Made by a program: the position numbers and the translations under genes
Source: a virus
Virus record (IMG/VR): IMGVR_UViG_3300032285_004110
Coordinates: 1-48,040 of that record
Reading direction: 5' to 3' (one strand)
DNA: 48,040 nt
The notes under the pieces: model-generated
The model's input: the letters and a program-made list of their open reading frames with translations, nothing else
Database searches by the model: none
What the model was told of the DNA's origin: nothing
In this document: positions 28,194 through 48,040 of the stretch, one piece after another
Layout of the letters: every line of letters starts with the position of its first letter
How positions within the stretch are numbered: position 1 is the stretch's first letter

Positions 28194-29390
28194 CTACTTT
28201 TCTTCTAAAGCTTGTACTCTCGCTGAAAGTTCTTGTACTGCTTTAATTAGTGGCGCTATAAATTCTTCATATCTTAAAGCTTGAGTTTCATCTTCTTTTT
28301 GAACCCATCCGCCAAAATCTTGAATGTTTAAATTGTCTAGAGATTCTTTAACTTCCTGAGCTATAAGACCATAATGTGTTCTATTACCTGGAACTGCAGT
28401 CTCAACTTGATTGCCATCTTCATCTACTGAATAATCTATTCCGCCAACATTAAACTTGTAGCTTACTGGATTTAACAGGTTAATAAAATTAAGACCTAGA
28501 TTAGATGGAGCTATTGTATTTTTTAAATTTTCATCTGATGTAACTACTGTAGATGTATTTATGTAGATATTTCCTGTTGCAATAACAGATGCTGCTCTTA
28601 TTGTTCCATTAGAAAAAATATCTTTCCAGTATCTTGCTGGTCCACCATCTGATGTATCTTTTCCTAAAGAATATAAGTTTGTAGAAAATGGATACCAGTT
28701 TGAGTTAACTCCAGTTGAAGATGTATTTGGTGACATAAGACCAATTCTTAATGATATTGGATCTATGCTTGGAGTTGCTCCATCAACTCCAGTAGGACCT
28801 TGTGGTCCCTGCGGTCCAGTTGCTCCAGTTGCTCCTCTTGGAATTGTAAAGTTTAATAAAACATTGCTTGATGTTCCAGAATTTGTTACGGATGCACTTG
28901 TTCCCGCTGCTCCCGTTGTAGTGGAGTTTACGGCTATAGTTGCTGCCGCATCTCCTTTTGCTCCTTGTGGGCCAGTTGCACCTGTTGCTCCAGTAGCACC
29001 GATTGGTAAAACTAAATTTAAAACTTGAGATGGGGAAGTTCCAGTAATTGATGCGCTTGCTGTTTGTCCAGAAGTTACTGTACCTATAGTTAAAACATTA
29101 GAAGGTCCTGGACCACCTAGCACTCCGTCTTGCCCTCTTGGAATATTAAATGTTAAATGTTGAGATGGTGCTGTTCCTGAAATTGTTACAGAGGCATTTG
29201 AACCTGCTGCTATTGTATTTGTTGCAATTACATCAAGAGAGTTTGCTGGACCAACTTCTCCTTGCGGGCCAGGGTGGGAATCAATGTAATCCGCAATATC
29301 TTTAGCAAGTAAAGATATATCTCTAGGAACATCTGGTGAATCCGTGTAGTCTGGAAATCGAAAGTTATGTTGATTTGGTGTTGTACTCAT
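28194..29390 (-). CDS. Collagen-like tail fibre with peptidase S74 chaperone
   Basis: A 398-residue fibre. After the N-terminus (HNFRFPDYTDSPDVPRDI) there are short collagen-type Gly-X-Y runs with GPQG and GATG units, near residues 55-65, 132-150 and 188-208, separated by beta-repeat units (SNVLTIGTVTSGQTAS). The C-terminus is a S74 auto-processing chaperone with S285-D286, N288-L-K290, HYGLIAQEV and EEFIAPLIKAVQEL. Collagen-like stretches trimerise. It ends the oxygenase cassette and the last oxygenase ends 17 nt upstream. The ATG has no Shine-Dalgarno but a TGG-TATAAT box 6 nt upstream. Confidence 0.88.
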   Translation of the reverse strand: MSTTPNQHNFRFPDYTDSPDVPRDISLLAKDIADYIDSHPGPQGEVGPANSLDVIATNTIAAGSNASVTISGTAPSQHLTFNIPRGQDGVLGGPGPSNVLTIGTVTSGQTASASITGTSPSQVLNLVLPIGATGATGATGPQGAKGDAAATIAVNSTTTGAAGTSASVTNSGTSSNVLLNFTIPRGATGATGPQGPQGPTGVDGATPSIDPISLRIGLMSPNTSSTGVNSNWYPFSTNLYSLGKDTSDGGPARYWKDIFSNGTIRAASVIATGNIYINTSTVVTSDENLKNTIAPSNLGLNFINLLNPVSYKFNVGGIDYSVDEDGNQVETAVPGNRTHYGLIAQEVKESLDNLNIQDFGGWVQKEDETQALRYEEFIAPLIKAVQELSARVQALEEK

Positions 29391-29406: not shown

Positions 29407-30072
29407 TTATCTTGTATACACTGAAAGATGCGATGTATACCTATCTCCTGATTTGATTTCATTTACTTTATGAAGGTACGGTTCGTTACTTGGGAATATA
29501 ATTAAACTACCCTGATCTGGCTTTAATGACACCCCTTGGTTTGGAAACTCAATCTCTCCACCCTCATAGTCATCATTTAAATACAAGATTATAGAAAATG
29601 CAAGATTTGTATGACCATCATAGTTGTCACAATGAGGGCCCATTCCAGGACCCACACCCCATCTTCTTAATGGAATCTCATTTATTGGTAAAACATAATT
29701 TGATGAATCAATATTTCTTGAACTAAAATAATTATCAAGACACATTTGAAATGCCATTTTTAAACTATTTGATATGTATAGTATTTTTTGATCTAATCTT
29801 CCAGCATCAATTACATCTTTAATGTTGGATATTAAAACATTTTTGTTATCTCCATATGTAATAGATGCATCATTGCTAGCAGTCCAAGGAAACCATTTTG
29901 TTATTTTACCGTAACTTCTAGCATCATTATCAACTTCATTTATAAATTCAACAAGCTCTTTTGGATAGCTTACAACATTTTTAAAATGCCAAATGTTATT
30001 GTCTAAAGCATTTGGTATAAACATATGATACATCTCATTTGGATCAAATATATTTGAATTATTTTCTATCAT
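29407..30072 (-). CDS. 2OG-Fe(II) oxygenase, prolyl 4-hydroxylase type
   Basis: A 221-residue enzyme with the double-stranded beta-helix signature: iron ligands H147-x-D149 (GPHCDNYDG) and H201, with R211 to bind 2-oxoglutarate. The characteristic YLNDDYEGGEIEFPNQG and PDQGSLIIFPS segments lie between. It would hydroxylate a protein or small-molecule substrate using O2 and 2-oxoglutarate. It is the last of a run of related enzymes and overlaps the preceding gene by 4 nt. Substrate unknown; the adjacent collagen-like fibre is a possible target. Confidence 0.85.
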   Translation of the reverse strand: MIENNSNIFDPNEMYHMFIPNALDNNIWHFKNVVSYPKELVEFINEVDNDARSYGKITKWFPWTASNDASITYGDNKNVLISNIKDVIDAGRLDQKILYISNSLKMAFQMCLDNYFSSRNIDSSNYVLPINEIPLRRWGVGPGMGPHCDNYDGHTNLAFSIILYLNDDYEGGEIEFPNQGVSLKPDQGSLIIFPSNEPYLHKVNEIKSGDRYTSHLSVYTR

Positions 30073-30827
30073 ATTTCTTCCACCTCAGATGCTGGTATAG
30101 CAGCTCCATATGGAGTAAGCCTTAAGCCTTTATTTCTGACTTCTTTCCATTCTTCTTGTTCATTTTTTTGCATGGCTCTTACTTCTGCAAGTTCTTTTGC
30201 CCAAGCATCTCTTACTTCTTGTGGGTAATCAGATTCTTCTCTGTCATCCCAAAATGAACCTAATGTATATCTTGGTTTACCTTTAACAACAGTAACTTCA
30301 TGCATATTTTTGTGTCCGCCATGAAATATTAAAAATGATCCAGACTTAGGGACCACTTCCATAGGCAGTTTTCCATGTTGTGCTTCAAACTTTAATGTTC
30401 CACCTTCAAAATCATCATTTAAATATAAAAAGCCTGCGTATCTACTTCTAGTAAACGCACCCATATTTCCTTCATTGTCACTATTGTCTGAATGCTTTGG
30501 TGCAAATGCTCCTGGCAACCATCTTTGAACATGAAAACTTATTTGAGACATTTTTTCTACAGGCTGATTTGCAACTTCAGCAGCAGCCTCTTTAAAACGA
30601 TTTTTTAAATCTGAAAACCAAGTGGGACTTAAATCAAATTTATTAAGTATCGGTTCCCCATCATATGGATATCTTGCAGAATAAGATTCATAAAAAGAAA
30701 TACCTTTCCAGTAATCCTCGTCTGTTTCAGCAAGCTCATTAAGTAATGCAATTACTTTTGAACATTCTTTTTGTGTTATAAAATCTTCATACAGATAAAT
30801 ATCATCAGAAAGTTTTACCAGATTCAT
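30069..30827 (-). CDS. 2OG-Fe(II) oxygenase, prolyl 4-hydroxylase type
   Basis: A 252-residue enzyme. Iron ligands are H112-S-D114 (APKHSDNSD) and H176 (MHEV), with R186 (KPRYTLGSFW) for 2-oxoglutarate. It has the YLNDDFEGGTLKFEAQHG segment of the family and a charged C-terminal helix (EVRAMQKNEQEEWKEVRN) not present in its neighbours. TAATG couples its start to the preceding gene. It is clearly paralogous to the other oxygenases here but divergent, so it probably acts on a different substrate. Confidence 0.85.
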   Translation of the reverse strand: MNLVKLSDDIYLYEDFITQKECSKVIALLNELAETDEDYWKGISFYESYSARYPYDGEPILNKFDLSPTWFSDLKNRFKEAAAEVANQPVEKMSQISFHVQRWLPGAFAPKHSDNSDNEGNMGAFTRSRYAGFLYLNDDFEGGTLKFEAQHGKLPMEVVPKSGSFLIFHGGHKNMHEVTVVKGKPRYTLGSFWDDREESDYPQEVRDAWAKELAEVRAMQKNEQEEWKEVRNKGLRLTPYGAAIPASEVEEI

Positions 30828-31651
30828 TACATTCCGCCAGCCTGCTGGTTATTTTTTGCATGTGCAACTTCTGCTGCAATTTCAACACCATCTATGACAT
30901 ACTTCATATTCTTCTTTGTGTCTTCTTCTAGTCGAACAAATTCTTTTTTCATCCAATTTACTGCACCAAATTTCTTTTGATTTTCTAGCCATTCTGGGCT
31001 TCCTTCATAAGGATACATAACAAAATTTCTTACAAAAAACTTTTGGCCATTATATATTGTTTTTACGCCATGGAAGTATGGTTCGTCTGATGGGAAAACA
31101 AGAATATCTCCAGCTTTTGGCTTGTGATTAATCAACTTACCATCAACAAAAAATTCTATATCTCCACCCTCATAATCATCATTTATATACATTGTGCATG
31201 TTAATTGAAATTTAGATCCAGGCATATCCCTCTCAGCAATAATAAAATCAGTGTGATATTGCATTGTCATTTTATTTTCAAGAATATCTATTTGATCATT
31301 ATACTTAGAAAAAGAACAACCACTAAAATGCCATCCAGGTTTCAACTCCACGTCGTGTCTTTTTATATAATCAAGCAAAACTAAGTCATAAGCTTCTTGA
31401 ACTTGATCTGCAAAATCTTTTTCTTCAATAAACATATCTTTGCTTTTTACATCTTCTGAAACTTCATCAATGTGTTTTTTTTGAGTGTATGTTCCAAATT
31501 TTGCCCATGGGTCCCAGGTTTTTAAAAAATATTCTCCATTTGAAGTTTCTTCAGACTTTTTCATAGTTTGATATAAAGCCTGTGGATCTTTCAAAATATT
31601 TCTGTAAACATCTACTCTTGGATATAGCTCAACATATTCTAAATTTGTCAT
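30827..31651 (-). CDS. 2OG-Fe(II) oxygenase
   Basis: Starting at ATG 31651 (AGGAGAG upstream, ATGA overlap with the previous gene) it has 274 residues; a frame 12 codons longer lies inside the upstream gene. Iron ligands are H133-T-D135 and H194 (YFHGV). The arginine position is unusual: the family's G-x-R-F is G-Q-K-F here, and R208 is the nearest arginine. The signature YINDDYEGGDIEFF is intact. A long N-terminal helical region (residues 15-125) precedes the catalytic barrel. Confidence 0.83.
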   Translation of the reverse strand: MTNLEYVELYPRVDVYRNILKDPQALYQTMKKSEETSNGEYFLKTWDPWAKFGTYTQKKHIDEVSEDVKSKDMFIEEKDFADQVQEAYDLVLLDYIKRHDVELKPGWHFSGCSFSKYNDQIDILENKMTMQYHTDFIIAERDMPGSKFQLTCTMYINDDYEGGDIEFFVDGKLINHKPKAGDILVFPSDEPYFHGVKTIYNGQKFFVRNFVMYPYEGSPEWLENQKKFGAVNWMKKEFVRLEEDTKKNMKYVIDGVEIAAEVAHAKNNQQAGGM

Positions 31652-32337
31652 GGTTGTTTCTCTCCTGTATGTTTCATTATCGTCCAAAAAAATGGAGACG
31701 TAAATCTATTGCCAGCGGTTACTGGTCTTACCCCGTGAGTGTAATACATATCTCCTGGGAAAAAATAAGCTGCTCCAGCCTTTGGTTTAAACTCAATTCC
31801 ATGCTGTGGGAAATATAATTCTCCGCCTTCATAATCATCGTTAAAATAAAATAGTCCTGCTAAGTCATACCAAGGGAAGTCGTTTGGTCTACCCTTTTCT
31901 ATTCCCGTATGAAACTCTTTATCTGCATGAGGCTCTTGTCTAGCGCCTACGGGCCACCTTACAATTGCTGGACCAGTTTCTTTTGCATCAACATTAAAAA
32001 ATTTATCTACTTCAACCTTTAATCTTGCAATCATAGAATTAATTAAATCTAGTATTGTTGGATCAGATTTCATTAAAGAATGATATGTACAAACCCTATC
32101 TTTCCATATATTTGCATCATAAAGGACTAACCCATCTTCGTCAATATGGGTTTCTGTTTGATCCCAAATTTTATTGTTAATTGCAAAATCAATTAATCTA
32201 GCTCTTTCGTCTTCTGTTAAAAAATTTTCTAGCTCTACTATGTTATCTGATGAATTACCAAAAAATCCTGATGGGGTTATTGATTTTGGAGCGTATAGCC
32301 CAATATCTTTATTTGCAATTTCTTTATTGTGATCCAT
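31648..32337 (-). CDS. 2OG-Fe(II) oxygenase, prolyl 4-hydroxylase type
   Basis: A 229-residue enzyme with H137-A-D139 (QEPHADKEF), H201 (THGV) and R211 (NRFTSPFFW), plus FYFNDDYEGGELYFPQHG and PKAGAAYFFPG. All catalytic residues are present. It begins a coupled run of four oxygenases (ATGA or TAATG junctions down to 29407). There is no Shine-Dalgarno; a TGG-TAGAAT box lies 6 nt before ATG, so a leaderless transcript may start here. Confidence 0.86.
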   Translation of the reverse strand: MDHNKEIANKDIGLYAPKSITPSGFFGNSSDNIVELENFLTEDERARLIDFAINNKIWDQTETHIDEDGLVLYDANIWKDRVCTYHSLMKSDPTILDLINSMIARLKVEVDKFFNVDAKETGPAIVRWPVGARQEPHADKEFHTGIEKGRPNDFPWYDLAGLFYFNDDYEGGELYFPQHGIEFKPKAGAAYFFPGDMYYTHGVRPVTAGNRFTSPFFWTIMKHTGEKQP

Positions 32338-32343
32338 TTTATA

Positions 32344-32352
32344 ATTCTACCA
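32344..32352 (-). promoter_or_regulatory. Extended -10 box, leaderless start of the oxygenase run
   Basis: Minus strand TGG-TAGAAT (32352-32344), then 6 nt to ATG 32337. A TTGAAA lies 19 nt upstream of the -10 and could serve as -35. No Shine-Dalgarno. Confidence 0.45.
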
Positions 32353-32360
32353 TATCTATA

Positions 32361-33062
32361 TTATTTCTTTTCAATTGTTTTTAACCTAATTGCTTTAACC
32401 TGATGTTTTCCTAGCATGTTCCCAAGGTGGTCTACAGCATCCCTATAAAAATTTGTCCATTTACCAGACATGTTTATCTTATAGACTTCTTCCCCATATG
32501 CCCTGGAATCAAAATTTGGCTTTGGAGTAAGGCTTGAGTCTTCAAAAACAATTTCAGAATCTTGTATATTTTCAAGATTAATTGGAAGAATTGAAAATAT
32601 TGGAGTATTAGCTTTAATTGTTATTTCAACATTTGGTCTTGTTATTCTTAAAGCACATGGTAACTCTCCAGTAAAAAATGATGTGCTCATTAATGTTGTA
32701 AATGGTTGAATCCCATCTCTTAAATAATTTGGGACTGGCATTGTTAGCATGCTTATGTTTTCATCAGTCTTAAAAATAATCCCCGTATTAAAACTTACTG
32801 TAGCGTTTCCTCTGCCAGCGTGTGCGTATTTTGATCCTGATAATATTTTTACATGATCTGAAGAAGAGTCCGAAACTCCATCCCAGATAAAAGTTATATC
32901 CTCTGGAAAAGATATTCCCCATCCCAATTGATTAGTAAGGCTAACTGGAAAACATTTATAGGCATGAGATTCCCATGTTTCATCCATCCAATCTCTTTTG
33001 ACTGAAAGTTGTGATATATTTGCAGAATCTTTTTGACTCTTATATGCCTTTATTTTTATCAT
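32361..33062 (-). CDS. DUF6065-like protein
   Basis: A 233-residue protein without membrane segments or known catalytic motifs. The pattern RDWMDETWESHAYKCFPVS, then NQLGWGISFPEDITFIWDG, matches my memory of the DUF6065 family (R-x-WMD, aY+C-P, n-GW-I, f-W-G). A second hydrophobic core (ISMLTMPVPNYLRDGIQPF, NTPIFSILPINL) follows. The function of the family is not known. It overlaps the preceding oxygenase gene by 23 nt and lies within the oxygenase run, suggesting that it works with them or on the same substrate. Confidence 0.65.
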   Translation of the reverse strand: MIKIKAYKSQKDSANISQLSVKRDWMDETWESHAYKCFPVSLTNQLGWGISFPEDITFIWDGVSDSSSDHVKILSGSKYAHAGRGNATVSFNTGIIFKTDENISMLTMPVPNYLRDGIQPFTTLMSTSFFTGELPCALRITRPNVEITIKANTPIFSILPINLENIQDSEIVFEDSSLTPKPNFDSRAYGEEVYKINMSGKWTNFYRDAVDHLGNMLGKHQVKAIRLKTIEKK

Positions 33063-33714
33063 TGCCTAATCTTTTGTCAACCAAAGCCCTGTATTCATCA
33101 TTATGTGTATTGTCATTGTAATCAAGCATTGTAACAATTGAATACTTTCTTCCACTTTCAACTGGCATTGCTATGTGTGAATATATATAGCTGGAAGGAA
33201 ATATATATAGGTCTCCCGCTTTTGGCTTTATCTTGATCCCTAATTTAGGAAATGAAAGTTCTCCACCGACATAGTCTTCATTTGGATAAGCTACAAGTGA
33301 AACCGTGGCGCTATAAGAAAATCCGTGATCTGCATGTTCTTGAAAATGTTGTCCTGGTCCATAAGATATAAAATTCATTACTTCCCAAAAATCCATTCTT
33401 ACGCTATGTGCAGTACAATAATCTTCAACTGGCCCAGATTGGACGTGCTTAGCAACTTTCCAAATCTCATTTATTTCTTCATCATATTCATTTCTAGGAT
33501 TTGGAATAGGGCCAATTTTTATATCCTGGCAGTCTCTATAACTTGGCCTTGTTTCGTCATATCCTACAGTTGCCCCTCGCCAATTATAGTGTCCGTTGCT
33601 TTTTTCAACAATTGCAAGAAGTCTTTCAATTAATTTTAGCTCTGGTTTTACAACATCCCTATAAACCCATAATCCTGGGAAAAGCTGTTCTTTATTTGAC
33701 CAAGTCTGTGTCAT
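33040..33714 (-). CDS. 2OG-Fe(II) oxygenase, prolyl 4-hydroxylase type
   Basis: A 224-residue enzyme with H127-A-D129 (FQEHADHGF), H180 (YSHIAMPV) and R189 (SGRKYSIVTML). The core strand region is VAYPNEDYVGGELSFPKLG and PKAGDLYIFPSS. The N-terminus (LFPGLWVYRDVVKPELKLI) resembles the entry helices of phage oxygenases of this kind. GAGAAAGAGA precedes ATG. It lies between the beta-hydroxylase and the DUF6065-like gene. Substrate unknown. Confidence 0.86.
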   Translation of the reverse strand: MTQTWSNKEQLFPGLWVYRDVVKPELKLIERLLAIVEKSNGHYNWRGATVGYDETRPSYRDCQDIKIGPIPNPRNEYDEEINEIWKVAKHVQSGPVEDYCTAHSVRMDFWEVMNFISYGPGQHFQEHADHGFSYSATVSLVAYPNEDYVGGELSFPKLGIKIKPKAGDLYIFPSSYIYSHIAMPVESGRKYSIVTMLDYNDNTHNDEYRALVDKRLGNDKNKGI

Positions 33715-33728
33715 TTTATCTCTTTCTC

Positions 33729-34307
33729 TTATTTATAGTTTAGCATATCATCAGGCAATATGTCAATAATTATGTGAGTTCTATCAAAATCTGTTGGGTT
33801 AGAAACAGAATGAATCATTTGATTATTTATTTCGTACCATCCGCCTTCTTTCATATGTATTGTATTATTCATTACTGTAAATGTGGTTAATGGATTTGTA
33901 ATAATTGGAACATGTATTCTTCTTGAATAATGAAGTAGGGGTCCTCCATCAACATGCTTTCTTATGTGACAATTTGCTTTAAGTTTAATAAATTCAGATC
34001 TAATTACTTTGCCAGAGTAGTATTCTTCCAGCTTTGAATGAATTTTATCTAGCTGTTTTTTTGCATTTTCATTTTTTAAAGAGTTTACATAATTAGTTAC
34101 TATTGGTTCTCCAACAACCCATTCGTAATCAGTTTCACAAATTCTAAACATTTCGGTGTCTCTGTGAGTATAGCCTTTTTCTTGTCTACTTTTATCTATT
34201 AGCCATTCGTTTGAAAAATTAGAAATTTCATTTTTAATATTATTTATTTCAAAATCTCCTAAATATAATATTGACCATTCAGTATTCTTTTTTAATCTTT
34301 TGTACAT
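33729..34307 (-). CDS. Aspartyl/asparaginyl beta-hydroxylase-like protein
   Basis: Starting at ATG 34307, 9 nt after GGAGG, the protein has 192 residues; another ATG 6 nt earlier is too close to the Shine-Dalgarno. It matches the aspartyl/asparaginyl beta-hydroxylase family: iron ligands H118-V-D120 (RKHVDGG) and H166 (HSVSN), the family strand YSRRIHVPIITNP at 127-139, WYEINNQ at 157-163, and R176-T-H for 2-oxoglutarate. It therefore has a different subfamily from its neighbours. It overlaps the sulfotransferase gene by 29 nt. The family modifies Asp/Asn in proteins; the target here is unknown. Confidence 0.83.
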   Translation of the reverse strand: MYKRLKKNTEWSILYLGDFEINNIKNEISNFSNEWLIDKSRQEKGYTHRDTEMFRICETDYEWVVGEPIVTNYVNSLKNENAKKQLDKIHSKLEEYYSGKVIRSEFIKLKANCHIRKHVDGGPLLHYSRRIHVPIITNPLTTFTVMNNTIHMKEGGWYEINNQMIHSVSNPTDFDRTHIIIDILPDDMLNYK

Positions 34308-34986
34308 ATTCATACACCTCCATATCTAATGAATTTATTTCTTCTATTCTATTTATTTGAGATTTGGTAAATTTAATTCCGACATCATATGATGAATTTG
34401 CTTTATCTGAATGTTTAAATGTTGAAAATTCAAATTCTTTTTTTAAACTGTTATTTAATTCTAATTTAAATAGGTCTATTTCTTCTAAAGTGTAGCATTT
34501 CATTTTATTTAGATTGTTTACTATGTCATTAAAATTTAACTTATAGTTTTCTAAATACCATTCATTATCTACTGCATGCTGAAATATAGGAACATTTTTA
34601 TTAAATTTTTCTATATTCATAGAGCCAGTTAAAAACTTTGATTGTAAATTAGATTGAATTTTTGATTGATCTCCATACAACCATCTTTCAAGCTTTTCTT
34701 CAGCTTCTATTCCAGCTCTTTTAGGCCCCGTTGTATACTTAAAATAACTAATAAATCTTTCTACTGGATTTCTTACTATTGTAAAAATTTCTGGATTATC
34801 CATATATTGCAAAGGCATTAATCCAAAATGGCCTCCAACAAACCTGCTTGATTTTATTTTTTCTATATCTATTTCTGTTCTATTTGATATAAAATGCTCT
34901 ACCCCATTTGATATCAAATGGGGTATAACATTATTTTTTATATATATACCTGAAGTTCTTGGTATATGTAGATGATATATTGACAC
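34279..34986 (-). CDS. Sulfotransferase-like protein
   Basis: A 235-residue protein with the two PAPS-binding signatures of sulfotransferases: the N-terminal 5'-phosphosulfate loop HIPRTSG (residues 7-13, directly after the first beta strand) and the 3'-phosphate motif TIVRNPVERFISYF (69-82). GGHFGLMPL (51-59) fits the carbohydrate (heparan 2-O-type) sulfotransferase subfamily. It would transfer sulfate to a sugar, lipid or tyrosine hydroxyl. The start is GTG (34986) overlapping the upstream TAG. No signal peptide. It sits between the Hint-domain protein and the hydroxylases. Confidence 0.8.
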   Translation of the reverse strand: MSIYHLHIPRTSGIYIKNNVIPHLISNGVEHFISNRTEIDIEKIKSSRFVGGHFGLMPLQYMDNPEIFTIVRNPVERFISYFKYTTGPKRAGIEAEEKLERWLYGDQSKIQSNLQSKFLTGSMNIEKFNKNVPIFQHAVDNEWYLENYKLNFNDIVNNLNKMKCYTLEEIDLFKLELNNSLKKEFEFSTFKHSDKANSSYDVGIKFTKSQINRIEEINSLDMEVYEYVQKIKKEY

Positions 34987-35483
34987 TAGAAACCTTTACG
35001 GTTGTGTAGTACTAGGTCTCCTGCAATTAGTATATCATTTGGTGCAGCATCAAATTCATAAACAGTTCTTTCTTCATCTATAACTGTTATTGACTCAACA
35101 AGAATTTCATTAAATGTATTATCTGAATTAATTACAAATATAGAATCTCCATTTTCAAGAATACCTGTTGTACTGAAGAAATATTTTCCTTGCTTCTTTG
35201 CAAGAATTGTTTGTTCTAATGAGAATCTTTTTTCTGAATCATTATTGATTATTAAGGTAGCATCTTTTATAGATGGTTTAATATTCTTTATTTTTGTTTT
35301 AACAAGTTCAACATTTTCAATAGAATCTGCTGACCATGTGTATGGGTCTACGGTAAATTCATCTGTCTGACCGTCCCATTTTACTGACCATACTTCATCA
35401 TCAAGTAAAATATCTTTTGCTTTCTTGAATTCAACTGAATCATTTGGTCCAACTACTCTTACTAGAGTGTCCTCATCAATACA
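34986..35483 (-). other. Hint (intein-like) domain, C267 to N427
   Basis: Residues 267-427 of the FFAPP-repeat protein. Conserved ends: Cys first in CIDEDTLV, His-Asn last in LVLHN. The block B TxxH is replaced by S-L-E-Q, and the residue after Asn is Arg, not Ser/Thr/Cys. The domain is too short for a homing endonuclease. Canonical splicing is therefore unlikely; cleavage at one junction is more likely. Confidence 0.78.
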
Positions 35484-36281
35484 TCCCCAGAACCCTGGTG
35501 GGGCAAAGAATGAAGGTGGGGCAAAGAACCCTGGTGGGGCAAAGAACCCTGGTGGGGCAAAGAACCCTGGTGGGGCAAAGAATGAAGGTGGGGCAAAGAA
35601 CCCTGGTGGGGCAAAGAACCCTGGTGGGGCAAAGAATGAAGGTGGGGCAAAGAACCCTGGTGGGGCGAAGAATGAAGGTGGAAAGAACGGCGCAAGTGTT
35701 GTAACCTGATTAGAACCAGCGGACTCAGCGGAAACTCCATTTGCATTTGTAGCCTTCACATAATATGTTTGCGATGTATTAGCAGTTTCAGCAACAGTAT
35801 ATGATGTTGATCCTGTTGAATATGTTGGGCCATCGCTTGATCTTAATGTGTAATCTGTTATTCCCTTTCCGCCATCTGCAGGGGCAGACCAAGAAACGTA
35901 GTCCTGATTTACCTGTGCTGTTGCAGATGGGGCGGAAGGGGTTGCTGGAACTGTAGTTGCTGTTATAGCAGTAGATGCTGAAGAATCAGGTGATGTTCCA
36001 TAATTATTTGTTGCTTTTACTGTAAATGTATAAGAAGTGGCAGAAGCCAATCCTTCTACTACTATAGGGGATGAGCTTCCTGTTGCTGTTTGACCACCAG
36101 AAGAGGTGACTGTAAATGATGTTGCTGGATAAGTTCCGTCTGGAGTAAACGATACAGTAGCTGCACCATTATTGTATGCACGATTTGTTCCTATATCTGT
36201 TGCAGATACATTTGTTGGAGCAAATGGAGCTAGGAAGTTATCCTGTCCTGATGATTTAATACCAAATTTCTTGTTAGCCAT
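34986..36281 (-). CDS. Fibronectin-III / FFAPP-repeat / Hint domain protein
   Basis: A 431-residue multi-domain protein. Two fibronectin-III domains (about 17-110, ATSYTFTVKATNNYG; about 112-195, YYVKATNANGVSA) are followed by 65 residues of hexapeptide repeat FFAPP[G/S] (199-263). Then comes a Hint (hedgehog/intein) domain: C267-IDEDTLV (block A), FSLEQTIL (block B position, with Q in place of the catalytic His), VYEFDAAPNDILIAGDLVL and H426-N427 (blocks F/G), leaving only RKGF as C-terminal flank. It is probably a virion surface protein that processes itself. GGGGA lies 7 nt before ATG. The sulfotransferase starts inside its stop codon. Confidence 0.85.
   Translation of the reverse strand: MANKKFGIKSSGQDNFLAPFAPTNVSATDIGTNRAYNNGAATVSFTPDGTYPATSFTVTSSGGQTATGSSSPIVVEGLASATSYTFTVKATNNYGTSPDSSASTAITATTVPATPSAPSATAQVNQDYVSWSAPADGGKGITDYTLRSSDGPTYSTGSTSYTVAETANTSQTYYVKATNANGVSAESAGSNQVTTLAPFFPPSFFAPPGFFAPPSFFAPPGFFAPPGFFAPPSFFAPPGFFAPPGFFAPPGFFAPPSFFAPPGFWGCIDEDTLVRVVGPNDSVEFKKAKDILLDDEVWSVKWDGQTDEFTVDPYTWSADSIENVELVKTKIKNIKPSIKDATLIINNDSEKRFSLEQTILAKKQGKYFFSTTGILENGDSIFVINSDNTFNEILVESITVIDEERTVYEFDAAPNDILIAGDLVLHNRKGF
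35493..35687 (-). repeat. 18-bp tandem repeat encoding FFAPP[G/S]
   Basis: Ten complete 18-bp units plus a shortened first unit (FFPPS). Only two main variants occur, coding for FFAPPG and FFAPPS, with one A-to-G silent change; otherwise codons are the same in all copies. That uniformity points to recent expansion by slippage or recombination and predicts copy-number variation between related phages. Confidence 0.95.
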
Positions 36282-36307: not shown

Positions 36308-39300
36308 TTAAGCTGTTAGGTCTCCAAGAAGTACCCATGTATTTGCTGCTCTTTTTACAAGAGTTGCAGATGACCATTGTGCACGAAGCTTGTTTCCTGG
36401 TGTGTAATTTAATGTTACTCCAGCTGCAGGTGAAACAGTTACTGCTCCAGCTCCTACTCTTAGAATATCCAAAGATGTTCCGACTGGGTAATTTGTTGAT
36501 GAATCTGCTGGAACTGTTAATGTTGTAGATCCTGATGCATTTATTTCAATTAATGAATCACGTTCTGAAAGATTTGAAAGTGTGTAATCTGCTGTTTTTG
36601 AAATAATTGTTGTAAGTGATGGAACACCTTGCTTTGTTTGAGATCCATCTGTAAATATTATTCCTGAAGCATCTACTGTAACTCCACCAGTAAACGATGG
36701 TGTTGCAAGATTTGCTTTTAATCCAAGACTTGTTGAAAGTCCTGAGATCTTTGACTGTGCAATTGCTGCAGAAGCATTTATATCTGCATCAACAATTGTT
36801 CCGTCAAGTATCATATCTGATGTAATTGCACCTGTTGCAATAGATAATGTTCCGCCAGTCTTTGTTAAACCTGAACCAGCAAGTATTGCCTGTGCTGCGT
36901 TAAATTGTACATAGTTAATGTTATCTGTACCAATTGTAAGTGTTCCAGATCCTGAAAGGATATATCCTGTATTTGCAGAAAGTGTTCCTGCTGTTACGAA
37001 ACAGAAATCTCCTCCTGACATTTCACCATTTGGATTATTATCATCGTCAGTTGCACGAGTCATTACCCACTTAGAAGATGCTCCTCCAAGAGAAGTTACT
37101 ACATAAATACCATTTTGCTTTGCATCTGTTTGTGATTTAACAAGAACTCTATCACCAACAGACATTGTCTGTCCATCAACAGTACCCATTGCTCCGTTTG
37201 CATCTGCTGTAAGAGTTGCTCCGTATCCATTGGTTCCATTAGCATAAGTTGTTGAAATATTTGTACTTGTTGCTGCCTTTACTGGTGCATGGAAATTAAT
37301 TCCAGAAGCAAAACCGTCGACATAAAGTTTGGTTGCTGCATGAAGATCTGATGTTGGTGCACCTGAAAGTGTAAGTGCTCCTGTCATTGTTCCACCAGCA
37401 AGTGCTAATTTTGCATCAAGTGCTGTTTGGGTTGCTGTTGAAACTGGTTTATTTGCATCTGATGTATTATCTACATTTGCAAGTCCAACCATTGACTTTG
37501 TAATACCAGAAACAGTTCCAGTAAATGTTGGTGAAGAAAGCGAAGCTTTAAGATTTAAAGCTGTTTGTGTTGCTGAAGATATTGGCTTATTAGCATCAGA
37601 TGTATTATCAACATTTGCAAGACCAACTGATGATTTTGTTAATCCAGCTACCGCAGTTGAAACTGCTGAATCAGCATAAGTTTTTGTAGCAAGTGCAGTT
37701 GTATCTGCAATGCCATGAATATTTGTTGTATCTGCTTCATGTGCTGCAAGTGATGCAGTAGACGCTTTTGTATTAATTTGTGTTTGAAGACTACTTGTTG
37801 TTGTATTGATTGATGTAACAGATGATTCAAGTGAAGATATTGTATTTTCAGCTGAATTTAGGTCAGATTGAAGTGTATATACTGAATTTTCTATTGTACC
37901 TATGGTTGCATCATAACTTGTTTTTGCTGCCGCAAGACCATTTGAAACTGTATTAATTTGAGTTTGAATAGATGAGGTTACTCCTGATAATCTACCTATT
38001 TCATCTTTTGTAACAGAGCCAATTGCTGTAGTTTCTGGTAAAACTACTGAGCCTGTAAATGTTGGTGCTGCTGATGGTGCTTTTGAAGCCAATGTCGATG
38101 TTAGGTTTGCAATTTTAGATATTGATATATCTGCACTATTGCTAATATCTGCATTAACAATTGTTCCATTTGCAATCATTCCTGAAGTAACTGTACCTTC
38201 TGGAAGAGTAACTGTTCCATTAAATGTTGGAGAAAGTATTGGAGCATATGTTGAATTAGCATATGCTGTATTTACTTTTGCATCAAGCTGATCTTGTACT
38301 GATGAAGTTACGCCATGCAAACGTTGAATTTCAGCATTTGTTGTATCTCCAATTCTTGCTGCATCTGCAAATAAGCCACCTACTTCAAGAGCATCTTTAG
38401 ATGCACCTGTAAAGTTTATTGTTGTTGTTGGTTCATCAACAACGCCTGAGAATAATCTCCATTTACCTTCTGAAGCATCACGAACAAGTCCTGAATGCTG
38501 ATATGTTCCATTGTTAAATGATGTAACAAATCCCAAGTCTAAAGAATTTGATTGATTATTTTCACCAAAATAAACTAGCGGATCTGATACAGAAAAACTT
38601 TCTGTATTTACAGTTGTTGTTGTACCATTTACTGATAAATTACCTGAAATTGTGATGTTGCCAGTTGTTATTTCTTCGGCTTCTACTGTACCAACCTGAA
38701 TAAGAGGTCCGCTAAATTTTGTTTGAGCCTGTATAGTGTTTGGAAGAGAAATAGTAATTCCATTATTGCTTGATGAATCTGTTTTAACAAGTCCATTATC
38801 AACATCTATAGATGCGTATAAAGTTTTTGTTGATGTTGCGTTATCCCATGTAGATCTTATGCCTCTACCAGGAACAAGTTTTGAATCTATTAAAGATATA
38901 ACTGTATTATCTATATTTAATTGGCCAGATGGAACTTTGCCAGAGTTATCTAATGAAGCAACTCCTCCAGCAATTCCTCTATCTGACATTGGAATATAAT
39001 CTGAGTCTACTGTGTTTGCAAGACCTGAGACTGCTGAATCTACATATGATTTAAGTGCTACTACGTTTGAATCAACGTTAATTGTTATTGTGTTAGCACC
39101 ATCATTGTAAGTTTTTGAAAGTCCTGCACCCATTGTAAGGGCTGTGTTAATAGCATCTTGGGAAATTTCACCAATTGCTACATCTGAATTATTTGCATAC
39201 GCAAGGGCGGTCCAGGTAGATGATCCGTTACCGAATTTAAATAGGTTTGTGTCTGACTCGACACCCATTTCTCCTGCTGCCAAAATTGGATTTACTGAGG

Positions 39301-39349
39301 TCCACTGTGAAGCTGTTCCTCTTCTTACTTGGATTCTTACTGTTGACAT
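36308..39349 (-). CDS. Tail fibre with Mtd-like N-terminal domain
   Basis: From ATG 39349 (AGGGGTGG 7 nt upstream; a GTG three codons earlier is less likely) the fibre has 1,013 residues. The N-terminus (MSTVRIQVRRGTASQWTS, then NPILAAGEMGVESDT, FKFGNGSSTWTALAY) is the Mtd-type adaptor domain that attaches fibres. It continues with repeats such as VGLANVDNTSDANKP, paired with SPTFTGTV units, typical of phage long fibres, and has a region TTTVNTESFSVSDPLVYF that is paralogous to the 45658-47655 fibre. The end (YVQFNAAQAILAGSGLTKTG, then SSTNYPVGTSLDILRVGAG) is a beta-rich tip. No S74 or collagen part is present. Confidence 0.85.
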   Translation of the reverse strand: MSTVRIQVRRGTASQWTSVNPILAAGEMGVESDTNLFKFGNGSSTWTALAYANNSDVAIGEISQDAINTALTMGAGLSKTYNDGANTITINVDSNVVALKSYVDSAVSGLANTVDSDYIPMSDRGIAGGVASLDNSGKVPSGQLNIDNTVISLIDSKLVPGRGIRSTWDNATSTKTLYASIDVDNGLVKTDSSSNNGITISLPNTIQAQTKFSGPLIQVGTVEAEEITTGNITISGNLSVNGTTTTVNTESFSVSDPLVYFGENNQSNSLDLGFVTSFNNGTYQHSGLVRDASEGKWRLFSGVVDEPTTTINFTGASKDALEVGGLFADAARIGDTTNAEIQRLHGVTSSVQDQLDAKVNTAYANSTYAPILSPTFNGTVTLPEGTVTSGMIANGTIVNADISNSADISISKIANLTSTLASKAPSAAPTFTGSVVLPETTAIGSVTKDEIGRLSGVTSSIQTQINTVSNGLAAAKTSYDATIGTIENSVYTLQSDLNSAENTISSLESSVTSINTTTSSLQTQINTKASTASLAAHEADTTNIHGIADTTALATKTYADSAVSTAVAGLTKSSVGLANVDNTSDANKPISSATQTALNLKASLSSPTFTGTVSGITKSMVGLANVDNTSDANKPVSTATQTALDAKLALAGGTMTGALTLSGAPTSDLHAATKLYVDGFASGINFHAPVKAATSTNISTTYANGTNGYGATLTADANGAMGTVDGQTMSVGDRVLVKSQTDAKQNGIYVVTSLGGASSKWVMTRATDDDNNPNGEMSGGDFCFVTAGTLSANTGYILSGSGTLTIGTDNINYVQFNAAQAILAGSGLTKTGGTLSIATGAITSDMILDGTIVDADINASAAIAQSKISGLSTSLGLKANLATPSFTGGVTVDASGIIFTDGSQTKQGVPSLTTIISKTADYTLSNLSERDSLIEINASGSTTLTVPADSSTNYPVGTSLDILRVGAGAVTVSPAAGVTLNYTPGNKLRAQWSSATLVKRAANTWVLLGDLTA

Positions 39350-39381
39350 ATTTGCCACCCCTAATTTAGACTTATTTGGTA

Positions 39382-42007: not shown

Positions 42008-42037
42008 ATTATACATTACTATTTTTTATAATCTAAA
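42008..42037 (-). promoter_or_regulatory. Candidate promoter for the adhesin-like gene
   Basis: Minus strand TATAAT (42013-42008) with TTTAGA (42037-42032) 18 nt upstream. The -35 region lies in the end of the oxygenase-like gene. A leader with AGGAGG follows. Confidence 0.45.
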
Positions 42038-42570
42038 CTATTTCTTATGTGTGTATATAAATATTCTGGGCCTTCTGTAAAATACCAATGTTCTGGCTCA
42101 CAATAAAAAAAGAAAGCATTGCAAACAAGGTTGTTTTCTGGATCTGGAAATTCTTCTCTCCAATGCTCTAAATCATTTCCGTATGTCATTAATGCATCAT
42201 TTTCTTCTAATAGATATGGCTTTCCTTCTACCCAAATTTTCCAAGGAGTTTTTTGAAATACACAAAAATTTATATGATAAGTACAAGCATTGTCATCTTT
42301 ATGTTTCCACAGTTTTGCTTCTTTTCCTTCATAAATCGACATAAGGCACCAAGTAGGCTTTATGCTTTCTAATTCAAAATGGTCTCTTGCAAATTCTGTA
42401 AGCATTTCATGAAATTCTTTTAATTCTGGTGTGTTTGCCCATTGATGCCTTCCAAATGATTCATCATAATTTGGTTGTGTTGACCACATTTTCATAGCAT
42501 ATTGCTGTAATCTTTTTAAATCATTTGGTGGCAATATTGTTTTGATTATTTCCGATTCTTTTATACTCAT
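42019..42570 (-). CDS. 2OG-Fe(II) oxygenase-like protein (separate family)
   Basis: A 183-residue protein from ATG 42570, which shares a base with the upstream stop (TAATG). H90-K-D92 (LWKHKDDNACTYHIN) and H136 (DLEHWREEF) give the H-x-D...H iron triad of a double-stranded beta-helix, with PWKIWVEGKPYLLEENDALM between. It lacks the NDDYEGG segment of the other oxygenases, so it belongs to a different subfamily. No clear arginine for 2-oxoglutarate can be named. It lies in a small island of three non-fibre genes inside the fibre module. Confidence 0.65.
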   Translation of the reverse strand: MSIKESEIIKTILPPNDLKRLQQYAMKMWSTQPNYDESFGRHQWANTPELKEFHEMLTEFARDHFELESIKPTWCLMSIYEGKEAKLWKHKDDNACTYHINFCVFQKTPWKIWVEGKPYLLEENDALMTYGNDLEHWREEFPDPENNLVCNAFFFYCEPEHWYFTEGPEYLYTHIRNSLDYKK

Positions 42571-42809
42571 TACCATTTTCCAATGGGGCAAGTTGCTTTT
42601 TCAAGTTTTGTTTTTACTTTCATAATACAACCACATTTTTTACATTGTGTAGTTAATTTAATTAATTCTGGACATAATTTACAAATTACAAATCTTTCTT
42701 TAGATTTTTCGTCATCTATCCATTCTGTATTTGGATTTATAACGTCCCACGGTCTTGTCTGTCCTAAACTTTGTTTATATTTTTCCCAAGGACTGAGTTC
42801 TTCACTCAT
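42570..42809 (-). CDS. Zinc-ribbon protein (DUF6171-like)
   Basis: A 79-residue protein with a C-terminal metal site: C43-x-x-C46 (VICKLCPELI), then CKKCGC, then KLEKATCPIGKW. The order C-x2-C, then T-x-Q-C-x2-C-G-C, M-x-x-K, and a terminal CP-x-G-x-W matches my memory of the DUF6171 family, which is frequent in environmental phages and of unknown function. The ATG overlaps the upstream gene by 8 nt and the stop overlaps the next ATG. It probably acts with the oxygenase-like protein translated after it. Confidence 0.7.
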   Translation of the reverse strand: MSEELSPWEKYKQSLGQTRPWDVINPNTEWIDDEKSKERFVICKLCPELIKLTTQCKKCGCIMKVKTKLEKATCPIGKW

Positions 42810-43059: not shown

Positions 43060-45648
43060 TTAGCACCAGCCACTTGTTTGATCTGGGCATAATCCATATG
43101 TTGTATTACATACTAAATCATATCCTGACCCATTCCATGAATCCCAACAACAAGTTACAGATTCATTACAATTTGCTGGTGCAGGGGTTGGTGTTGGTGT
43201 TGGTGTTGGTGTAGGAGTTGGTGCGGGAGCACATCCAGGGCAATTTGATAAATTATAATCTGGACATCCTATTGCTGTTCTACAAACAGTGTATGTTCCA
43301 CAACCATCTGAACAATTATAGGTTTGTGTTGCTGGTAGTCCCGAATAGCCAACACAAGCTGTACAATCTAATGTAGGTGTAGGGGTTGGTGTAGGGGTTG
43401 GTGTAGGGGTTGGTGTAGGGGTTGGTGTAGGGGCAGCCACACAAGCTCCATTTGTTGCAGCAGATAATGCATCAGAATATGTAGCTCTATAAACTGTTCT
43501 TGTTGATGTTCTTCCACCAACATTTGTTGTATCTGATGGAATGCTTACTCCAGAAAATGGTCCAGTTACACTTGGGCTTTGAACATAATATCCATTTTGG
43601 AAATCGCAAATAGATGTACCGATGTAGTATGTAACTTCTACTACTGGAACGCATCCTGCTACTTGATCAATATTTGGACAAGTTCCTGGGGTAATACAAG
43701 TTCTGTAATACCTAGATCCAGATGGACAATTTGCATCATTTTTTGTAAGAGTATAACTTCCATCTGTTGGATAATAAGAATTACAAGTACTGCAATTTAC
43801 TGATTGATATCCGCAATCTGTAGAATTCCATGTCCAAGCATAAGTTCCAGCATATTGTTTTGTGCCATATGTTGTTGCAGAACATCCATATCTATATGTT
43901 CCACTTGCAATGCCATTTATAAGTTGAGGCTCTCTATAATCAAATATAGTTCTTGTCCAAGGCATTTTTGTTGTTCCAGAGCAATCGTATCCGAAATCAG
44001 TTCCATTTGAATAAGCTTCACATGATCCATATGTTACGTTATTTGGCTGTGTAGGCCTTACGTAATTAGAGCTTGCAGCATATGTACTTTCTCCATATTG
44101 ATTTCTTGCCCAAATTTGAACAAAATATTCACTACTTGTATTTGCCCCATAAGAATATGTTGAGCTATTAGAACCAGTTGTGGTAATTGCTCCAGTGTCT
44201 ATGTTTGACCTATACCATTGATACCTATATGATGTTGGATTACCAGTCCATGAGCCATTGCTTGTTACAACAATATTTCCATTAGATTCAGCAATTGTTG
44301 GAGAAGATATATTTACAGGAGGAGATGGATTTGCACAAGTTAATGAATTACTTTGTGATTGAGAAGTTCCTGCTACATTTGTTGCATAGGAAACAACATA
44401 TATAGATTGTCCATCATATGAACTATCCAAAGTAATGGATCCGCCATATTGACCTAATGCTTGTCCATTTGCAAACCAACTGTATGAAGTTGAATCTGGG
44501 TTATTTGCCCAATCTGCACCTGTTGTTAAATAAAAATATCTTCCTGTAGCTGATATAACTGGAGGCTGAATAATTGAAGGAAGAGGTGGCATAGGTAAAG
44601 ATGTAGTAGTTTCATTTGATTGCCATGAAGTTTCTGTAAAGCCAGTTGCGGTTCCATTAACTATAATTTTAAATGTATATGCATGTCCGCCTGATAAAGT
44701 ATCTGTTGTAAAGCTTGTATAAGATCCATTGTAAGTTTCAAAAAAATAATTTAACTGACCATTATTTACTGGAGATCCATCTATTGCAATTGTACGAATT
44801 TCATAAGATGTTTGCGTAAGATGTTCATTTGTCCAATTTATAGTTATTGCATTTGCATTTTGAGCAAATGATGTTGCTGTTACTTTAGGCTTAATTGGTT
44901 TAAGATCATAAATTACAGCATTCATTCCCTGACCCTGAACGTTTGAGTTTGAATAAGTTTTCCATGGGCTAGTTGTATTTATTGCAGCAAGAAAAATTCC
45001 AAGTGTTCCAGAAGCTAGCCCTGTATTTATTGTATAAGATGTTACATCCCCTAAATCAATTTGTGTAAATGCAACTTCTGGACCTTGATACTGAAGATAA
45101 TATCCGTTTGCACCTTTTGATTTATTCCATGAAAGCTTTACAACACCATTTGATTCGACCATTGCAGAAAGAGATGTCATTGTTTCTGGAGCAATAACTG
45201 TTTGATACATTGATCCATAAGATGGTAAACTTTCTCCTGAATCATTTACAGCTATAACAGAACATCTTATTAATCTTCCAACCATAAACATACATACTTG
45301 GTCTGAAATAATTGAATATGAGTTAGATGTTGCTCCTGCTATGTCCTCCCATATTAATGATCCAGAAATTGCATAGTAGCCGCTTTGCCATTGATATTTG
45401 TATGATGTTGGAGAATTTGTCCATGTGCCATTTGAAATAGATACATTTTGATTAACAATATTAGCTATTCCTGTTGACCATGAAAGCTCTGGAAGTACTG
45501 TATTTACTGGTATTGGTGCAACTATTTCTTTCCATTCTGTACCATTGTGAATAAATGCTTTTTTATACGGTTGCCAAGAGGTACCGTCGTTAACTTTTAT
45601 ATTTTTGAATTGATTCCAAGAGGAGCCGTCAAAAATTTTAAATGGCAT
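43060..45648 (-). CDS. Cysteine-rich, PT-linker virion protein with fibronectin-like domains
   Basis: An 862-residue protein. The N-terminus has three copies of a 15-18 residue unit (FDGSSWNQFKNI, NDGTSWQPYKKAF, HNGTEWKEI), probably an attachment module. Ig- and fibronectin-like domains follow (SISNGTWTNSPTSYKYQW and its later variant; VVKLSWNKSKGANGYYLQY). The last 320 residues hold about two dozen cysteines in short modules joined by two (Pro-Thr)n linkers, and the protein ends at a cysteine (TSGWC). Disulfide-rich heads on PT stalks are rare in phages and suggest folding outside the cytosol or metal binding. AGGAGG lies 6 nt before ATG. Confidence 0.75.
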   Translation of the reverse strand: MPFKIFDGSSWNQFKNIKVNDGTSWQPYKKAFIHNGTEWKEIVAPIPVNTVLPELSWSTGIANIVNQNVSISNGTWTNSPTSYKYQWQSGYYAISGSLIWEDIAGATSNSYSIISDQVCMFMVGRLIRCSVIAVNDSGESLPSYGSMYQTVIAPETMTSLSAMVESNGVVKLSWNKSKGANGYYLQYQGPEVAFTQIDLGDVTSYTINTGLASGTLGIFLAAINTTSPWKTYSNSNVQGQGMNAVIYDLKPIKPKVTATSFAQNANAITINWTNEHLTQTSYEIRTIAIDGSPVNNGQLNYFFETYNGSYTSFTTDTLSGGHAYTFKIIVNGTATGFTETSWQSNETTTSLPMPPLPSIIQPPVISATGRYFYLTTGADWANNPDSTSYSWFANGQALGQYGGSITLDSSYDGQSIYVVSYATNVAGTSQSQSNSLTCANPSPPVNISSPTIAESNGNIVVTSNGSWTGNPTSYRYQWYRSNIDTGAITTTGSNSSTYSYGANTSSEYFVQIWARNQYGESTYAASSNYVRPTQPNNVTYGSCEAYSNGTDFGYDCSGTTKMPWTRTIFDYREPQLINGIASGTYRYGCSATTYGTKQYAGTYAWTWNSTDCGYQSVNCSTCNSYYPTDGSYTLTKNDANCPSGSRYYRTCITPGTCPNIDQVAGCVPVVEVTYYIGTSICDFQNGYYVQSPSVTGPFSGVSIPSDTTNVGGRTSTRTVYRATYSDALSAATNGACVAAPTPTPTPTPTPTPTPTPTPTLDCTACVGYSGLPATQTYNCSDGCGTYTVCRTAIGCPDYNLSNCPGCAPAPTPTPTPTPTPTPAPANCNESVTCCWDSWNGSGYDLVCNTTYGLCPDQTSGWC
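43177..43230 (-). repeat. (Pro-Thr)n-coding simple repeat 1
   Basis: GGTGTT-type 6-bp units, 54 bp, coding for the PT linker before the last Cys-rich module. Confidence 0.8.
43373..43434 (-). repeat. (Pro-Thr)n-coding 12-bp tandem repeat 2
   Basis: Units of GGTGTAGGGGTT, about five copies with no change, coding for the longer PT linker. The identical codons suggest recent slippage. Confidence 0.85.
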
Positions 45649-47655: not shown

Positions 47656-48040
47656 TATTCGTATGATCCTCCGCCATCTAGGATACTTCCTCCTATAATG
47701 TCTTCGGATCCTCCTCCGTCTATTAGATTATCATTTTCTAAAACTTCTTGCTCTGTTCCACCATCAAATAATGTTAAATTTTTCCATGATGGATCAACAT
47801 TTGTTTCCAATGGCCCTCCTCCATCCATTCCGATGACTTCTGGAAGAATTACTGCTGCAGACTCTATCTCATTATACTCTAAAAATGTTACTGGATTCTG
47901 CATATCAATTGTTGCTACTTCGCCATCATAAGCATGAGTGTGTCTATAAAATGGTGTAGGATCTGTGCTTGGGGGTGTAAGCTCAATCCATTCAAATCCA
48001 TTAAATATTCTTAAATTTTTAGAAGTTACGTTAAAATAAA
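47655..48040 (-). CDS. DGG-repeat virion protein (5' truncated by window edge)
   Basis: The frame is open to the right edge, so the true start lies outside; the visible part is 128 residues. It begins NVTSKNLRIFNGFEWIELTPP and contains YRHTHAYDGEVATIDM. The second half has four spaced D-G-G units (IGMDGGGPLE, LFDGGTEQE, LIDGGGSED, ILDGGGSYE), each followed by an acidic residue within two or three positions. I do not know this motif; it is likely part of a fibre or neck protein. The stop overlaps the start of the 665-residue fibre (TAATG). Confidence 0.6.
   Translation of the reverse strand, partial: YFNVTSKNLRIFNGFEWIELTPPSTDPTPFYRHTHAYDGEVATIDMQNPVTFLEYNEIESAAVILPEVIGMDGGGPLETNVDPSWKNLTLFDGGTEQEVLENDNLIDGGGSEDIIGGSILDGGGSYE

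Follow-up and report, generated by a model that had tools for sequence, protein, structure and literature searches.

IMG/VR virus record IMGVR_UViG_3300032285_004110, a linear record of 48,040 bases analysed here over its whole length (the window), carries on its minus strand a compact block of genes (29407-36281) lying between two fibre genes of the same strand, one for a fibre of the Mtd_N type (36308-39358) and the other for a collagen-like fibre with a Peptidase_S74 end (28194-29390, by Pfam). Along that strand the block encodes a repeat protein (34986-36281), a sulfotransferase (Sulfotransfer_2, 34279-34986), an Asp/Asn beta-hydroxylase-like 2-oxoglutarate (2OG) oxygenase (33729-34313), a prolyl-hydroxylase-like oxygenase (oxygenase 1, 33040-33714), a DUF6065 protein (32361-33062) and four further prolyl-hydroxylase-like oxygenases (oxygenases 2 to 5, at 31648-32337, 30827-31687, 30069-30827 and 29407-30072). 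Every gene that the initial annotation had named in the block was found in its place on the minus strand by a check of open reading frames (ORFs) and by Pfam, and the Pfam assignments of the block's enzymes, of fn3, DUF6065 and Peptidase_S74 all exceed the curated cut-offs (sulfotransferase 4e-7, 31 bits against a cut-off of 22; Asp/Asn hydroxylase, PF05118 Asp_Arg_Hydrox, 2e-11; DUF6065, PF19541, 6e-30). The portal of the window is 56-58% identical to Streptomyces phage portals, and the host is therefore likely actinobacterial.

The repeat protein opens with an FN3 head (residues about 1-198; Pfam fn3 4e-7, and relatives with the same head). This is followed by FFPPS, ten FFAPP units and FWG (residues 199-266, 35484-35687), the count of exactly ten units agreeing with the initial annotation, with G after seven of them and S after three. 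The final 165 residues, overlooked in that annotation, are a Hint domain running from Cys267 to His-Asn427 (35001-35483) and a four-residue end, RKGF, with its stop codon (34986-35000). Across 144 distinct repeat proteins the conserved unit is aromatic-aromatic-x-Pro-Pro, in the form FF-x-PP-x, with A, S or G at position 3 and any of G, S, A, R, F, V, L, N or T after PP (position 6). In bacterial genomes the FFxPP pattern had 31 matches, nearly all of them single occurrences. We also note a long fibre-like protein elsewhere in the window (43060-45648, minus strand) that has (TP)n runs and Cys-rich segments at its end. Its relatives in L108, L145 and L153 end in FFxPP arrays, with a Hint domain as well in L108 and L153; two proteins per genome can therefore carry the tail.

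The five oxygenases are likely of the protein prolyl-hydroxylase type, as far as their sequences can tell. All five (starting at 29407, 30069, 30827, 31648 and 33040) match PF13640 2OG-FeII_Oxy_3 with E-values from 3e-8 to 2e-12, and the HxD...H iron triad (H127, D129, H180) is invariant in an alignment of 20 oxygenases that includes them; in the same alignment a Lys/Arg at a later position was picked out by eye as the basic 2OG-binding residue. The best profile matches were to a prolyl 4-hydroxylase (entries 3itq and 5hv0, presumably the Bacillus anthracis enzyme; E 2.3e-13) and to human prolyl 3-hydroxylase 1 (P3H1; 1e-12), followed by 5c5t (5e-8), which we take to be the prolyl 4-hydroxylase of Paramecium bursaria chlorella virus 1 (PBCV-1), 6ax6 (1e-5), lysyl hydroxylases (LH3) and EGLN1. 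PiuC-type dioxygenases match the profile too (6e-11). Protein prolyl and lysyl hydroxylases come first among the matches. Oxygenase 1, with matches to the B. anthracis and PBCV-1 enzymes, is of the type most common beside the repeat gene, and oxygenase 2 is of a type present also in phages that lack the window's portal; both belong to the core of the cassette. The TTG listed as the start of oxygenase 3 is probably wrong, an in-frame ATG at 31651, overlapping the stop codon of the gene upstream, being likelier.

The block is a genuine module that recurs. When viral contigs were scanned for FFxPPxFFxPPxFF, 114 loci proved to have an in-frame array, and the block is more than a chance assembly, since more than 100 viral loci combine this array with neighbouring enzymes of like kind. 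An oxygenase lies within 3 kb downstream of the array at 60 of the 64 loci with at least 3 kb of downstream flank, and within 3 kb of it at all 21 loci with both flanks. The corresponding figures are 2/52 and 3/23 for viral controls with collagen-like GPQGPQGP runs, and 4/58 and 1/23 for (TP)5 controls (Fisher <1e-23, a p-value overstated by the relatedness of many loci; the oxygenase profile was built from the window's clade and may be less sensitive in controls). One of the three positive collagen controls, L313, carries the FFxPP-type cassette itself. The initial annotation had proposed, as a check, looking for co-occurrence of PPG or collagen-like fibres with these enzymes across related phages: the linkage holds for FFxPP arrays and fails for collagen-like proteins. 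Arrays with no adjoining enzymes were found in L166, in L183 and at the first copies in L116 and L151. All four looked like counterexamples and were rejected as such: L116 and L151 each have a second array that is followed by oxygenases; in L166 a second array sits at the contig edge, with no sequence beyond, and L183 (G025) has three PF13640 genes close together elsewhere in its genome. Linkage also extends to three contigs that lack the window's portal, where a short PASTA-like protein bears the array. Its neighbours on the 98 and 105 kb contigs include DUF6065 and two oxygenases of types seen in the window; on the 205 kb contig (L144) they include oxygenases. Among viruses without the window's portal, short PASTA-like FFxPP proteins beside an opposite-strand oxygenase occur in L110 (5518-5916, on 105 kb), in L139 (2989-3396) and in similar cases.

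A comparison of fibres that share a head and differ in their repeats bears on what the enzymes act upon. These fibres were found only by the FN3 head or the portal, in phages that share the window's portal family at 50-91% identity; a Spearman coefficient of 0.43 from the full set was set aside, repeat class C having been found partly through the repeat or DUF6065, and the comparison was redone without those loci. All 24 fibres with PP repeats have three to five oxygenases and DUF6065 within 5 kb downstream (PP-type cassettes as a whole hold three to seven oxygenases, the window five). The nine fibres with single-Pro repeats (TPFGF, SPFxVFGF) have zero to two oxygenases and no DUF6065, and all six fibres with (FGA)n repeats, almost devoid of Pro, have no adjoining oxygenase; the genomes of this class (class A) may hold PF13640 genes elsewhere, none of them beside the fibre. 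On the portal tree the distinction between PP and other repeats needs three changes (shuffles need 14), all of them imposed by supported branches, and the cassette changed together with the repeat at all three. The first is a deep split. The second is the L080 clade, where repeat protein and cassette are both missing from the fibre region and three of four members have collagen. The third, L027/L631, is nested in the window's close clade (portals about 91% identical); there FFxPP has given way to TPFGF, other genes have replaced the core oxygenases and DUF6065, and L027 retains the collagen fibre.

Co-variation of this sort, between cassette and tail prolines, would be expected of an enzyme and its substrate. 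Enzyme presence, number and type follow the tail prolines across same-head fibres, and the repeat tail is therefore likely the substrate. On balance we think it probable that the adjoining oxygenases act on the FFxPP tail and that the block is a fibre-finishing cassette. We propose that the (FF-x-PP-x)n tail, at the C-terminal end of an FN3-headed and presumably virion-surface protein, would be hydroxylated on its prolines post-translationally, in the infected cell, by the adjacent 2OG-Fe(II) prolyl-hydroxylase-like enzymes, with DUF6065, a protein of predicted dUTPase-like fold, as the partner that PP-type cassettes always include. The benefit might be a stiffer or stickier tail, or a change in host range.

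The main rival to this proposal is linked-block exchange, in which phages swap tail and oxygenases together, as a single recombining unit of the variable fibre region, and the enzymes have other targets, be they small molecules, host proteins or further virion proteins. Since the genes adjoin one another within a variable region, whole-block recombination would also produce co-variation. Moreover, 2OG oxygenases are common in aquatic phages, having been found in 14 of 16 cyanophage genomes (PMC3037559), and related genomes hold further copies elsewhere. We nonetheless regard this alternative as unlikely: the number of enzymes rises stepwise with the proline content of the tail, collagen-like and (TP)n fibres lack the oxygenase link, the repeat is accompanied by DUF6065 and two oxygenase types even where its head is PASTA-like and the phage lacks the window's portal, and L027 keeps the rest of its fibre region with repeat and core enzymes changed. 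Several further points weigh against the tail as substrate. The three changes on the portal tree are the only independent ones counted, and the single-Pro fibres of L564, L630 and L631 have no oxygenase within 5 kb. L027, L630 and L631 retain two diverged oxygenases about 7-8 kb downstream, beside the collagen gene, and PF13640 genes lie away from the cassette in related genomes too, so that not all of them act on the tail. Finally, the collection of isolates held no close match to the repeat protein or to DUF6065, all records being from uncultured viruses; the only isolate match of the repeat protein was a weak one of its Hint part (E 2e-3, 27% identity) to a tail protein with an intein domain in phage NCTB (LT598654).

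Two observations concern what occupies the place of the cassette in the compared phages. In phages with (FGA)n or single-Pro fibres a ribonucleotide reductase with B12-dependent-type domains lies near the fibre gene (L566, 11398-13431; L555, 3254-5284). In TPFGF phages (L548, 12016-13373; L027, 2527-3252) the place is taken by several proteins of unknown function, one of them distantly DUF6065-like (E 5e-4), which could be enzymes fitting the TPFGF tail.

The initial annotation had looked to collagen-type X-Pro-Gly sites, both in the PPG units of the tail and in the neighbouring collagen-like fibre, as the substrates. The collagen-like gene does adjoin the block in the window, and G is the most common residue after PP, in just under half of the units (746 of about 1,600). 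However, the Gly that collagen-type prolyl 4-hydroxylases would call for after the target proline is not conserved in the repeat tails, and 32 of the 144 distinct repeat proteins contain no FFxPPG unit whatever, which rules out PPG as the conserved motif. Neither is the collagen-like fibre needed: L034, L036, L038 and L043 retain the cassette with no collagen-like ORF. Nor is it sufficient, given the unlinked collagen controls and L075, L080 and L084, in which the collagen runs are longer and the stretch from those fibres to the portal gene contains no oxygenase. Because the cassette occurs without collagen and collagen without the cassette, as in the L080 clade, collagen was rejected as the substrate and the fibre is probably a bystander. 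The annotation had named, as evidence that would tell against it, related phages that keep the oxygenases and lack any PPG or collagen-like protein. L036, whose repeat has 28 PP and no PG, is such a phage, and it speaks against the PPG and collagen form of the idea only. That form we now hold to be improbable. What stands of the suggestion that the phage hydroxylates its own fibres is a fibre-like phage protein as the most likely target, on the strength of the proline co-variation; the X-Pro-Gly motif and the collagen fibre drop out. We would mention separately a virus with a very long GPQGP collagen (L206, 626-2953 and 7310-8637) in which one diverged oxygenase lies next to a distantly DUF6065-like protein, a pair that is possibly a separate, collagen-type cassette.

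Elongation factor Tu is a known bacterial prolyl 4-hydroxylase substrate, and the enzymes might serve host takeover, by modifying host proteins or by altering 2-oxoglutarate levels or nitrogen control, in which case the fibre neighbourhood would be incidental. An effect on 2-oxoglutarate levels or nitrogen control has been proposed for the 2OG oxygenases of cyanophages (PMC3037559). Against this stand the run of five diverged copies next to a single repeat protein, in a structural region and on the same strand, and the dependence of the enzymes on proline in that repeat; we consider host takeover very improbable.

In many members, the window included, the tail is followed by a Hint domain akin to type A bacterial intein-like (BIL) domains. 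Pfam sees the window's domain weakly (E 0.016), and a profile built on 40 aligned relatives finds 2lwy, a BIL domain of known structure (E 2.4e-7), and several inteins. The AlphaFold2 model of the domain has a predicted local distance difference test score (pLDDT) of 93.2, and Foldseek matched it best to the BIL2 structure 6tmm (E 3.6e-7), then to 2lwy (8.3e-6), with the Hedgehog autoprocessing domain 1at0 at a target-normalised template modelling (TM) score of 0.81. The predicted fold is thus shared with the Hedgehog Hint domain and with the type A BIL domains of C. thermocellum (2lwy) and Tetrahymena (BIL2, 6tmm); with the latter two the window's domain also shares the N-terminal Cys, the C-terminal His-Asn and the lack of a Cys, Ser or Thr thereafter. 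It differs from them in standing at the extreme C-terminus, behind a repeat array, and in the replacement of the block-B His by Gln. Its borders read GFWG-C directly after the repeats and LHN-RKGF at the end, and the N-terminal Cys is invariant across the aligned Hint domains, a set selected for that residue. Type A BIL domains carry a terminal His-Asn and splice or, more often, cleave (PMC4031507). Judging from sequence and model, the window's domain most likely severs itself from the tail at Gly266|Cys267. It may perhaps also join RKGF, a possible C-extein, to the tail, and the mature protein would end in the modified repeat.

Two close relatives of the window, L006 and L007 (portals 98% identical), bear on this cut. 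Their DNA agrees with that of the window as far as the final repeat, stops with FFAPPGFWD* where the window reads FFAPPGFWG|CIDEDT, and resumes just before the next oxygenase, such that Hint, sulfotransferase and Asp hydroxylase (about 1.7 kb) form a single insertion or deletion between them and the window. L006 and L007 end one residue past the shared FW; the proposed cleavage site is therefore where a natural Hint-less allele stops. C-termini with the pattern [K/R]-x-[F/Y] occur in 16 of 35 cases behind HN and on 20 of 46 Hint-less short tails, a match with what splicing would predict that is suggestive only. Self-processing of the domain is made less certain by several features. Block B of the window reads SLEQ, with Gln in place of the His of the intein TxxH pattern (relatives have SLEH in L455 and L101, and TAEH in L512), and the HN end is missing from about half of the Hint domains. 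Further departures from a canonical intein are the +1 residue, Arg instead of Cys, Ser or Thr, and a C-extein of only four residues. In L098 the position of Hint after the FFxPP array is occupied by Peptidase_S74, from the family of self-cleaving intramolecular chaperones of phage fibres; the place and the proposed self-processing are similar, the fold and chemistry unrelated.

The sulfotransferase and the Asp hydroxylase form an optional supplement, which comes in together with the HN-type Hint. The sulfotransferase is present beside 14 of the 119 tabulated repeat proteins, and the two genes adjoin 14 of 33 HN-type Hint proteins as against none of 86 others (Fisher 1e-9, near relatives counted separately), which rules them out as core parts.

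DUF6065, in contrast, belongs to the core of the PP-type cassette. The link holds in reverse: an aromatic-proline repeat ORF lies on the same strand in 51 of 52 DUF6065 loci that were not found through the repeat. Its AlphaFold2 model (pLDDT 84.7) was matched by Foldseek to trimeric dUTPases with a probability of 1.00, but with E-values of 1e-3 and query TM scores of 0.3-0.44; the model suggests that the fold is likely dUTPase-like, with a barrel like that of the trimeric enzymes. One might speculate that DUF6065 is a binding partner of a trimeric fibre.

Virus-encoded protein hydroxylases have precedents in giant viruses, namely the prolyl 4-hydroxylase of PBCV-1 and the collagen lysyl hydroxylase of mimivirus, whose substrates are thought to be repetitive viral proteins. 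These are 2OG enzymes like those of the cassette and match its profile (5c5t, 6ax6). The cassette is distinct from them in residing in tailed bacterial phages, in the several enzyme copies in a row with DUF6065, in a proposed substrate that is aromatic FFxPP and not collagen or PAPK repeats, and in the Hint domain on that substrate. The B. anthracis enzyme has the same HxD...H core; unlike the cassette it is cellular and a single gene, and we know of no linkage between it and a repeat fibre of the FFxPP kind. This substrate, gene set and combination with Hint appear new with respect to giant-virus hydroxylation: in the open literature searched (phage prolyl hydroxylation, DUF6065, freshwater actinophage oxygenases) we found no description of the cassette. 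More tentatively, and with clear reservations, we suggest a mobile maturation module of tailed phages that combines substrate and enzymes. Its tail would fit different heads (FN3, PASTA-like, long fibre) and bring its own hydroxylases, a dUTPase-fold partner, an intein-like domain that excises itself to leave the modified C-terminus exposed, and the sulfotransferase/Asp-hydroxylase add-on, yielding a hydroxyproline-rich appendage made inside bacteria.

The 2OG oxygenases of aquatic phages are common and mostly unexplained, and the FFxPP tails provide one large group of them with a named, testable substrate derived from co-variation; DUF6065 for its part gains a context and a likely fold. If the proposal is correct, phages carry out multi-enzyme post-translational finishing of their own structural protein, combined with an intein-like self-cutting domain, and the hydroxyproline-rich protein chemistry associated with animals, plants and giant viruses would occur in phages as well.

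Two further genes on the minus strand of the window may be mentioned. Between fibre genes, a 190-residue protein (42019-42591) has an HKD...H pattern and matches PHROG 2954 (labelled ferrochelatase, E 6e-15); it may be a 2OG-type enzyme. A short protein cut by the window end (47655-48038) has repeated DGGG/DGG motifs at its C-terminus.

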